A stretch of 64,000 nt of DNA, from assembly GCA_013373205.1 (NCBI GenBank), contig JABXIG010000015.1:1-64000 (forward strand), given 5' to 3'. Each line of letters begins with the position of its first letter. Position 1 is the first letter of the stretch. The position numbers were made by a program, and so were the translations under genes. This DNA comes from Methylocystaceae bacterium. Its GTDB lineage: Bacteria; Pseudomonadota; Alphaproteobacteria; Rhodospirillales; Terasakiellaceae. The notes under the pieces are model-generated. The model did not search any database. It was given only the letters and a program-made list of their open reading frames with translations, and was not told where the DNA came from. Below, piece by piece: positions 15,898-17,607 of the stretch.

Positions 15898-16020
15898 GTC
15901 CTATCCTTCGCTTATGGGCGTTTCGATAGGACAAATCTGCTCGGTTTATTGAGAGTTCACAATCAACCCCAAGAGTAATAGGGGCTTTTATAACTTTGGT
16001 TTATGCATTTTCTAATGACT

Positions 16021-16767
16021 TCAGCCGGCTAATGACCGCGTTTGGTCAGGCTGATCAATCTCAGCCAACACCGCTTTTGTCATCTCAAAGAACTGCAGGC
16101 GCACGGTCTTTGCATGGGGGTTATCTCGCTCAATCGCTTGAAAAACATTTGCAGAATCATCGCGCACCATCTCAAGGGCCTGACACATAAGGTCAAAACT
16201 TGGTGTCGTTAATTCTGTTGGAAATGGCTCCAGACGATGAAGGATCTGGGCAACCATATGGGTCATCCCCTGAACCAAGGCCATATCACGATCATGTTGA
16301 TCCGCACTTTGGACAATGACGTTTAAGGTAAGTTTTCGTTTTAGAAATACCGTAAGTGCTTTCCAGCTTTCCCCACGCACGGGACACAGAACCATCTTAT
16401 GCCCAGCCACACCGTCCTTGGCACTTTGCGGTCCAAAGAGTGGATGGGTGGCAATAATTTCGACAAATTCAGGCAGATGCTGCGTCATGACTTCAACCGG
16501 TTTGATCTTGACCGACCCCACATCCAGAACAATCTGCCCCGGACGTAAAAAAGGTTTTATCTGCAAAATCGTGTGAGCCATCTGCTGAACAGGCACAGCA
16601 AGAATAATCAGATCGCATCGTGCAACAGTTTTGATATCACATGAGCCTTCAACATGCGGATCATGTACCTGCACAGGGCAAAAATCTTTAATATGATGGT
16701 GGATTATCCGACCAAAGGCCCCAAAGCCAAGCAAGCCGATTGAATTTATTTTAAGGGAATTTGACAT
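16021..16767 (-). CDS. tyrA: Prephenate/arogenate dehydrogenase-like protein
   Basis: 248 residues, shorter than full TyrA. The N-terminal Rossmann fold has GLLGFGAFG; the catalytic domain has LDVGSVKIKP and ATHPLFGPQSA, both typical of prephenate dehydrogenases. The enzyme oxidises prephenate (or arogenate) with NAD(P) on the way to tyrosine. No chorismate mutase or ACT domain is fused. It stands alone, and its leader (16811-16955) has a promoter, a Phe/Tyr-containing leader peptide and an attenuator, which independently supports an aromatic amino acid role. Because the protein is short, the exact substrate (prephenate or arogenate) is open; the gene symbol denotes the family. Confidence 0.85.
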   Translation of the reverse strand: MSNSLKINSIGLLGFGAFGRIIHHHIKDFCPVQVHDPHVEGSCDIKTVARCDLIILAVPVQQMAHTILQIKPFLRPGQIVLDVGSVKIKPVEVMTQHLPEFVEIIATHPLFGPQSAKDGVAGHKMVLCPVRGESWKALTVFLKRKLTLNVIVQSADQHDRDMALVQGMTHMVAQILHRLEPFPTELTTPSFDLMCQALEMVRDDSANVFQAIERDNPHAKTVRLQFFEMTKAVLAEIDQPDQTRSLAG

Positions 16768-16810
16768 CGCATTTTCTTCACTAAACGTGCTGCGAAGTCC
16801 GAAAAAGCCA

Positions 16811-16841
16811 AAATAAAAACCGCTGGGAAAACGCAGCGGTT
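16811..16841 (-). terminator. Attenuator terminator of the tyrA-like leader
   Basis: On the minus strand AACCGCTG pairs perfectly with CAGCGGTT across an 8-base loop and is followed by TTTTTATTTT. It lies between the leader peptide and the tyrA-like start. Its 5' arm (16830-16839) can instead pair with the segment at 16860-16867, the antiterminator. Confidence 0.85.
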
Positions 16842-16862
16842 AAACAATAAGGTATGTGTCCG

Positions 16863-16879
16863 CCGTTATGATAACGGCA
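16863..16879 (-). promoter_or_regulatory. Pause hairpin (1:2) of the attenuator
   Basis: GCCGTTAT and ATAACGGC are perfect complements around a single central base. The first arm on the minus strand covers the last leader codons (Leu14 to Ser17) and the second arm overlaps the stop codon and the antiterminator segment 16860-16867. Ribosome stalling at Tyr12 or Tyr13 would mask the first arm. Confidence 0.8.
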
Positions 16880-16919
16880 GATAATAAAAAGTTACAAATT
16901 TGGCGCTCATCTGTTTCAT
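16866..16919 (-). CDS. Leader peptide of the tyrA-like gene
   Basis: A 17-residue ORF, MKQMSAKFVTFYYLPLS, with Phe at 8 and 11 and a Tyr pair at 12-13, directly before the pause hairpin. This is the expected layout of a transcription attenuation leader reading the supply of charged tRNA-Phe and tRNA-Tyr. The first ATG lies at about the predicted transcription start, so translation may be leaderless, or it may begin at the ATG of codon 4. No good ribosome site is visible for either. Confidence 0.75.
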   Translation of the reverse strand: MKQMSAKFVTFYYLPLS

Positions 16920-16926
16920 GAGGAAT

Positions 16927-16955
16927 TTATTACGCTTCCAATGACACAGTGTCAA
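16927..16955 (-). promoter_or_regulatory. Sigma-70-type promoter of the tyrA-like leader
   Basis: On the minus strand, TTGACA (16950-16955) and TAATAA (16927-16932) are separated by exactly 17 bases. The predicted start of transcription is near 16920, right at the leader peptide ATG. Confidence 0.75.
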
Positions 16956-16997
16956 CAAAAAGCCGACCCTGACAATTTCTATCATCAGGGTCGGCTT
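16956..16997 (-). terminator. Terminator of the GNAT gene
   Basis: A perfect 13-base stem (16960-16972 with 16985-16997) followed on the minus strand by a T run. It lies 26 bases past the acetyltransferase stop. Its T run directly abuts the -35 element of the tyrA-like promoter. Confidence 0.9.
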
Positions 16998-17022
16998 AAG
17001 TTAGGGCCAGGGGCTATATCAA

Positions 17023-17574
17023 TCAGTTTGCTACAACGTTAAAATGATCGACATTCAGGGCCGAAAGTTCAATCTCGGCAATATTGTGTTGTGTTTGAAG
17101 ATCGTAATCTTCTTCGATCAGACGTTTGCGCATCTTAATGCCGTCCCGTCCCGCCGGGATCAGGGTAAGCGCATCACGACATTCCATATAACCGTTTTCA
17201 GACAGCATATGCATCATGACCGCATTATCGAAAGGAATTTCCCCGTTGATCTGGCTCGCACCGGATTGCATAGCCTCGATCTCCGCCCAGGAAAGCAAGC
17301 TTTCCCCAATACCATGTTGACGCAAGCGCGGATGGACACACATGGCCAAAATGGTGGCGGTCTTCATATTCGGGGTGAACACATTCAAGATATATCCCAC
17401 CGTCTGATCCCCCATCTTGGCCACAATGCAATGGGCCACCTGTGAGAGGAAATAGCGTTTCAGACTTTTACGATATGATTCTTTTCTTGAAAAACACATG
17501 TCTTCAAGACTCATCAATTCAGTCAAATCATCCAGCGACGCATTTTGATATTGAACTGAAACGATCTGGTTCAT
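17023..17574 (-). CDS. GNAT family N-acetyltransferase (RimI-like)
   Basis: 183 residues. The acetyl-CoA binding motif A is visible as AMCVHPRLRQHGIGESLLSWAE, preceded by a VGYILNVF strand and followed by NAVMMHMLSENGYMECRD, the usual order of the GNAT fold. The layout is close to RimI, which acetylates protein N-termini, but the C-terminal 30 residues are extra and the target cannot be read from sequence. It is a single gene with its own terminator at 16956-16997 and follows the small secreted protein gene at 17608 on the same strand. Confidence 0.85.
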   Translation of the reverse strand: MNQIVSVQYQNASLDDLTELMSLEDMCFSRKESYRKSLKRYFLSQVAHCIVAKMGDQTVGYILNVFTPNMKTATILAMCVHPRLRQHGIGESLLSWAEIEAMQSGASQINGEIPFDNAVMMHMLSENGYMECRDALTLIPAGRDGIKMRKRLIEEDYDLQTQHNIAEIELSALNVDHFNVVAN

Positions 17575-17607
17575 TTTCTTATTCCTTACAATAAGCGACG
17601 TCGGTCT

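Follow-up and report, generated by a model that had tools for sequence, protein, structure and literature searches.

A probable tyrosine-specific attenuator with a leaderless leader peptide precedes a plant-like tyrA gene in Alphaproteobacteria

The 64,000-nucleotide stretch of DNA analyzed here (the window) comes from a member of the same genus as Terasakiella pusilla, and it raises the question of how a stand-alone tyrA gene, preceded on the same strand by a short open reading frame (ORF) with Phe and Tyr codons, is controlled. A preliminary description had proposed a Phe/Tyr leader-peptide attenuator in front of a prephenate dehydrogenase-like gene. The parts on which that proposal was built, namely a minus-strand promoter, a 17-codon leader, a hairpin at the end of the ORF, and a terminator followed by a T run, can all be read or folded in the window (Table 1). 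On the minus strand, 7 nt separate the TAATAA hexamer from the leader ATG, no recognizable ribosome-binding site or Shine–Dalgarno (SD)-like tetramer is found upstream of the window leader ORF, and the RNA is predicted to start at or beside the ATG at 16919. This promoter is absent from the four promoter-like sites of a promoter scan because the rule of the scan demands that the second hexamer end in T. The upstream neighbor is a GNAT gene, and its own terminator-like site (16997-16960) lies just before the leader promoter.

To describe the RNA, the 136-nt segment from 16925 to 16790 was folded, and a minimum free energy (MFE) of −36.1 kcal/mol was obtained, relative to a shuffle mean of −23.4 (z = −3.76); none of 200 dinucleotide shuffles was as stable. 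The fold contains hairpins 1:2 and 3:4. The Tyr13 codon ends on the first base of arm 1, and a ribosome halted there would be placed to cover the first arm of hairpin 1:2. An alternative helix, 2:3, is also available: CGGCGG (16865-16860) can pair with CCGCTG (16839-16834), close to where an alternative pairing had been claimed earlier. A terminator scan lists hairpin 3:4 as the site 16841-16818, a result that is weak when taken alone, as the scan returned four terminator-like sites in 2 kb where 2.3 were expected. Two further structures had been missed in the preliminary description: helix P1, which joins the beginning of the leader ORF to the segment in front of hairpin 3:4, and hairpin 5:6, on the start of tyrA.

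Table 1 Positions of the tyrA gene and of the elements upstream of it in the window
Feature	Position	Strand	Basis or detail
Promoter	TTGACA 16955-16950, 17-nt spacer, TAATAA 16932-16927	minus	Sequence reading
Leader ORF, 17 codons, MKQMSAKFVTFYYLPLS	16919-16866	minus	Phe8, Phe11, Tyr12, Tyr13
P1, 5′ arm (leader codons 2-5)	16906..16916	minus	Partner 16851-16842; covariation; window duplex −5.9 kcal/mol
Control codons Tyr12-Tyr13	16881..16886	minus	Tyr sixth from end in 78/78 rows
Hairpin 1:2, 10 bp, overlaps ORF end	16881-16872/16868-16859	minus	MFE fold
Region 1, 5′ arm of 1:2	16872..16881	minus	Last base of codon 13 through codon 16; MFE fold, covariation
Region 2, 3′ arm of 1:2	16859..16868	minus	CGGCGG 16865-16860 doubles as 5′ arm of 2:3
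P1, 3′ arm, immediately 5′ of hairpin 3:4	16842..16851	minus	Covariation
Hairpin 3:4, 8-bp terminator stem	16841-16834/16825-16818	minus	MFE fold, terminator scan, covariation
T-rich tail TTTATTTTGG after hairpin 3:4	16808..16817	minus	Terminator scan
Hairpin 5:6 containing the tyrA start codon	16763..16799, arms 16799-16791 + 16771-16763	minus	Family-wide covariation
tyrA, plant-like TyrA, predicted arogenate dehydrogenase, 248 aa	16021..16767	minus	Pfam, solved relatives, Asp204

The class of enzyme encoded by the gene bears on which amino acid might be sensed. In the window TyrA, residues 43-138 are covered by PF02153, and the solved structures most similar to the protein are chains named Prephenate dehydrogenase 1, which we take to be the soybean enzyme. 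Asp204 of the window protein corresponds in the alignment to chain residue 222 of the soybean structure, and an Asp is found at this position in all 78 leader-bearing rows. In the accessible text of PMC5681985, an acidic residue at position 222 is described as a mark of arogenate-specific enzymes, and an enzyme of that clade from Ochrobactrum intermedium is described as having arogenate activity and no prephenate activity (PMC5681985). We infer that this Ochrobactrum enzyme is an orthologue of the gene at locus L038. The window gene is predicted to encode a plant-like (clade I) TyrA of the arogenate type, and an enzyme of this class would fit a tyrosine-specific control. The earlier label of a prephenate dehydrogenase-like gene was right in pointing to a TyrA-like protein and is to be replaced as to the class, which carries the arogenate-marking acidic residue. 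The canonical hisC-tyrA pair is separate: the window genome contains two weaker tyrA paralogue matches, one of which immediately follows hisC (TIGR01141) and corresponds to PRK07502, the canonical prephenate/arogenate dehydrogenase. On the 3′ side of the window tyrA, on the same strand, the segment 13898-15897 encodes a cytochrome b561 fused to a dihaem cytochrome c domain, followed by a DUF1924 protein with a CxxCH motif and then by another dihaem cytochrome c.

Among 199 genomes near the window, nine (its own included) carry the gene at an E value of 1e-20 or better, and the Tyr-Tyr leader is present in all eight of the others. Within the window's genus, the gene is found in only two of the six genomes listed. 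A contig scan with alignment A1 returned 236 relatives (a first contig scan had matched none), and 80 of these were analyzed; Bosea, Thalassospira, Brucella, Methylobacterium, Shimia, Ruegeria, Roseomonas, and Mesorhizobium are represented. In 74 of the 80 relatives, the gene is preceded by a leader whose sixth-last residue is Tyr (69 with Tyr-Tyr and five with a single Tyr). No such leader is present within 300 nt upstream in the remaining six, nor within the same distance of seven more distant genes. In a phylogenetic tree, all 80 leader-bearing rows (78 together with two from 385 genomes sampled evenly across the class) fall into one 86-row clade with a support of 98/99; under a long-branch warning, the six leader-less rows are scattered within this clade and the seven distant leader-less genes lie outside it. 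In that even sample itself, a gene matching this profile at 1e-40 occurs in 12 of the 385 genomes, and five of these 12 genes have the leader. The element is not confined to Rhodospirillales. These counts support the claim of a leader-peptide attenuator before a stand-alone tyrA. At loci L051, L056, and L062 (Rhodoblastus and a related MAG), tyrA lacks the leader and a small ORF, termed lipoprotein-like from a reading of its sequence only, lies directly upstream.

Within the leader, the constant feature is the position of tyrosine: the sixth residue from the end is Tyr in 78 of 78 rows, and Tyr-Tyr occurs in 73 of them. Outside of the Tyr codons, the peptide is highly variable. Leaders of the 74 relatives have 15 (14 cases), 16 (45 cases), 17 (14 cases), or 22 codons (one case) and start with ATG (72) or GTG (2). 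The 22-codon leader, that of Brucella tritici LMG 18957 (L040:2808-2876), owes its length to an in-frame repeat, STWSTWST, and its Tyr-Tyr-to-stop part is unchanged. An ORF of the form ATG or GTG, 6-14 codons, Tyr-Tyr, four codons, and stop lies within 330 nt upstream of the gene in 55 of 59 representatives, which were pre-selected as leader-bearing (the frequency for relatives is the above 74 of 80), and in seven of 17,700 dinucleotide shuffles. When TTGAC at the right distance is added to this form, the counts are 55 of 59 and 0 of 17,700. A chance origin of the leader ORF is ruled out by these shuffles. The TTGAC motif starts 34-39 nt upstream of the leader start codon in every one of the 78 rows and in all 59 representatives, and an SD-like tetramer is found upstream of the leader in ten of the 59. 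This spacing predicts an RNA start at the leader start codon, and because it recurs in every row, leaderless transcription looks ancestral, in support of the leaderless start suggested for the window.

Conservation of the helices was assessed with an alignment-free test, in which the pairing energy of an arm with its own partner is compared with that obtained when partners are swapped in from other species (5000 permutations). Two sets were used, the 59 representatives and 28 rows (approximately one per genus, from which the z values are taken); kinship inflates partner-swap tests, an effect that the 28-row set reduces and does not remove. Helix P1 covaries (z = −4.8 with 28 rows; 0 of 5000 permutations with the 59 representatives). 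With both sets, covariation is also observed for 1:2 (z = −2.8, 26 of 5000), 3:4 (z = −5.2), and 4:5 (z = −4.3, 0 of 5000), and it is strongest for 5:6, which holds the ribosome site or the start codon of tyrA (z = −6.5). By the same test, the control pairs 4:6 and 3:6 give no signal, and pairs of the P1 arm with 5 and of 2 with 5 deviate in the reverse direction. Helix 2:3 likewise gives no covariation signal in the partner-swap test because both of its arms are nearly invariant. A further pairing, 3:5 (GCTGCG with CGCAGC in the window and in Thalassospira), lay beyond all 5000 permutations with the 59 representatives but was reached by 256 of 5000 (z = −1.7) with the 28 rows, and it was dropped. 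At the level of sequence comparison, the leader, its Tyr position, the promoter spacing, P1, 1:2, 3:4, and 5:6 are established. Comparison of the regions upstream of homologues thereby bears out the leader and the covarying stems; the Phe codons expected alongside them are not conserved, and the spread reaches beyond the order in which relatives were to be sought. The RNAalifold consensus behind model R1 retained only hairpin 3:4 (six pairs), and R1 is therefore mainly a sequence model. It gave 28 matches in the 385 genomes of the class, five of which lie before this tyrA gene; several of the matches before other genes are different aromatic leaders, and many weaker matches look like chance.

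The element is very probably a tyrosine-specific, ribosome-mediated attenuator with a leaderless leader ORF. In this model, RNA polymerase would start at the leader ATG and a ribosome would load onto the bare 5′ end. When Tyr-tRNA is ample, the ribosome would reach the stop codon and cover region 2, hairpin 3:4 would form, and in the window's lineage the T run would terminate transcription. When Tyr-tRNA is scarce, the ribosome would halt at Tyr12-Tyr13 and cover region 1, which would allow 2:3 to pair and transcription to proceed into tyrA; the product of the gene, the predicted arogenate dehydrogenase, would then make tyrosine. If no ribosome is present, 1:2 and P1, the latter hiding the leader start, would occupy region 2 and the gene would be off. 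We infer ribosome stalling, a response to tyrosine, termination, and a role for hairpin 5:6 in this scheme. Folding with ribosome masks is consistent with the first choice: for RNA ending after region 3, all 59 representatives form helix 2:3 when a ribosome is stalled at Tyr, seven of 59 when no ribosome is present, and none of 59 when a ribosome stands at the stop codon. Once region 4 is present, 3:4 is favored at equilibrium in all three ribosome states (means of 7.8, 7.0, and 7.8 expected pairs over 59 rows); the mean under stalling is 7.0, and the window reaches 8.3. Because 3:4 wins at equilibrium even under stalling, the attenuator model needs kinetic trapping. The outcome of other attenuators is also thought to be kinetically decided. 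The output in the window is likely mainly transcriptional, with the T run bringing about termination.

The terminator with its T run, as described for the window, turns out to be a minority feature of the family: a run of at least four T within 14 nt behind hairpin 3:4 is found in only six of the 59 representatives, the window included. Because the other 53 lack such a run, the window terminator may not be the ancestral output. It is quite possible, though short of probable, that the element controls translation of tyrA and that 3:4 is mostly no terminator. In the off state, made up of 1:2, 3:4, and 5:6, the last of these would hide the ribosome site or the start codon; in the on state, made up of 2:3 and 4:5, the ribosome site would be free. 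The alternating helices would relay the position of the leader ribosome toward tyrA, and the window's lineage would at a later time have acquired a T run, with loss of a strong 4:5. The top rank of 5:6 in the covariation test argues for such a translational switch, as does the covariation of 4:5, a helix incompatible with both 3:4 and 5:6 and long in Methylobacterium, Roseococcus, and Shimia. The 53 representatives without a T run point the same way. In addition, the Trp leaders of Brucella and Mesorhizobium have T-rich tails after their hairpins (such as CTTTTTGTTT), whereas the tyrA elements of these organisms contain no run longer than three; in Thalassospira lucentensis, a T run is present in both the Trp leader and the tyrA element (a run of six in the latter). 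The folding calculations argue against translational control. In whole-leader equilibrium folding with masks, a stall frees the ribosome site in only one of 59 representatives, and when the ribosome site and start codon are considered together, two of 59 become freer and two of 59 less free. A mixed result is obtained for RNA ending just before region 6, where 2:3 with 4:5 dominates in ten of 59 under stalling and in none of 59 otherwise, but where helix 4:5 alone is on average equally common with and without stalling. In the window itself, 4:5 is weak (−4.8 kcal/mol) and hairpin 5:6 alone is no better than shuffles (z = 0.11).

A tentative synthesis, one that we put forward as possible and would not call probable, is that of an old alphaproteobacterial tyrosine sensor built from successive helices. 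Where the ribosome stands on a leaderless leader of some 16 codons would gate the ribosome site of an arogenate dehydrogenase gene through competition of 2:3 and 4:5 with P1, 1:2, 3:4, and 5:6, and a few lineages, the window's among them, would have turned the device into a terminator by gaining a T run.

With respect to the amino acid sensed, joint control by Phe and Tyr had been proposed for the window. The Tyr part of this proposal is upheld by every leader-bearing row; the Phe part would fit at most a few lineages, including that of the window. Phe stands directly before the Tyr codon in seven of the 59 representatives and anywhere in the leader in 23 of 59, counts that rule out Phe as a conserved control codon. 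A mixed sensor, in which Phe11 would add sensitivity to phenylalanine at least in the window's lineage, is unlikely. The sequence F-Y-Y in the window, T. pusilla, Thalassospira, and a Sneathiellales MAG, and the seven representatives as a whole, speak for it, but another residue occupies this place in 52 of 59 representatives, and the predicted product of the enzyme is tyrosine. We regard it as very improbable that the element chiefly yields a short RNA acting in trans, or the peptide itself, comparable with rnTrpL and peTrpL of Sinorhizobium meliloti, with control of tyrA secondary: a terminated RNA of approximately 110 nt starting at the ATG would resemble rnTrpL as described in the accessible text of PMC7298713, but the peptide is very variable beyond the Tyr codons and the pairing logic operates in cis.

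The tyrosine-specific attenuator has counterparts among known systems. In the pheA, his, and ilv attenuators of gammaproteobacteria, the control codons overlap the first hairpin arm, as in the tyrA element, and the choice lies between 2:3 and 3:4, as is predicted for it; unlike the leader described here, theirs possess ribosome sites, and their stretches of control codons are often longer. The amino acid and gene differ as well. In translational attenuators of the ermC and cat type, a ribosome stalled on the leader exposes a ribosome site that was sequestered. Relative to these, the putative signal here would be a shortage of charged tRNA rather than a drug, and a longer chain of helices would be needed. 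The abstract of Vitreschak et al. 2004 reportedly names branched-chain, His, Thr, Trp, and Phe operons and not Tyr. No RNA family in Rfam 15 matched the element: window positions 16000-17600 gave four matches up to an E value of 5, all far below the gathering score and none to a leader family, and the loci of 14 of the 80 relatives gave no match other than a cobalamin riboswitch elsewhere in L058. This riboswitch lies near the Methylobacterium variabile locus (L058:1370-1571, minus strand). In a search confined largely to open-access literature, no published leader peptide for tyrosine alone, nor a Tyr leader before this gene, was found.

Among published alphaproteobacterial cases, trpL of S. 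meliloti (trpL/rnTrpL, trpE(G)) is described in the accessible text of two articles as leaderless, with an RNA that starts at the start codon (PMC7298713, PMC10117765). As far as that text describes the trp attenuator, the tyrA element is alike in its short, predicted leaderless ORF at the RNA start, its consecutive control codons, and its potentially competing structures. It differs in that Tyr replaces Trp, the gene behind the leader encodes a predicted arogenate dehydrogenase instead of being trpE, and a hairpin lies on the start of this gene. Helix P1 is a further possible difference, and in most relatives no T run follows 3:4. In 15 genomes searched as a control, Trp-Trp leaders were found before chorismate-binding (trpE-type) genes in three: those of Brucella pseudintermedia, Mesorhizobium sp. 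L-8-3, and Thalassospira lucentensis (L157, L158, and L159, respectively) have T-rich tails after their hairpins. For Caulobacter crescentus, the accessible text of PMC4117421 reports leader CDSs before trpS and ilvIH and names attenuation for ilvIH; these are likewise short CDSs before alphaproteobacterial amino acid genes, with other amino acids and genes, and tyrA does not occur in the main text of that article. Attenuators before tyrA operons were predicted by Song et al. 2005, including hisHb-tyrA of Agrobacterium (PMC1173090, Table 7). From what is accessible of that article, its list was taken from a prediction website and the Agrobacterium case is a canonical, operonic tyrA (PMC1173090); its main text nowhere uses the term "leader peptide".

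Other aromatic leaders were encountered in the class. At L097:1501-1606, L098:1501-1606, and the R1 match in L102 (minus strand), leaderless-looking leaders with Trp-Tyr-Phe near the end and T-rich tails after the hairpin precede GNAT acetyltransferase genes, and at L106 a similar leader precedes an ORF without a Pfam match. A class I Trp/Tyr-type tRNA synthetase gene, probably tyrS, is preceded at L099:1501-1608 by a leader that carries Val-Tyr-Phe close to its end and by a hairpin with a T-rich tail. Finally, at L107:1501-1565, a Tyr-Tyr leader-like ORF, the frame of which passes the usual stop, lies before a canonical tyrA of the PRK07502 type, a hint that canonical TyrA, too, can come under this type of control.

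The candidate tyrosine-specific attenuator is widespread and is placed on a bacterial relative of the plant tyrosine enzyme. It also suggests that leaderless leaders are perhaps not peculiar to trpL. In addition, its natural variants with and without a T run may allow a change between transcriptional and translational output to be studied in one homologous set.
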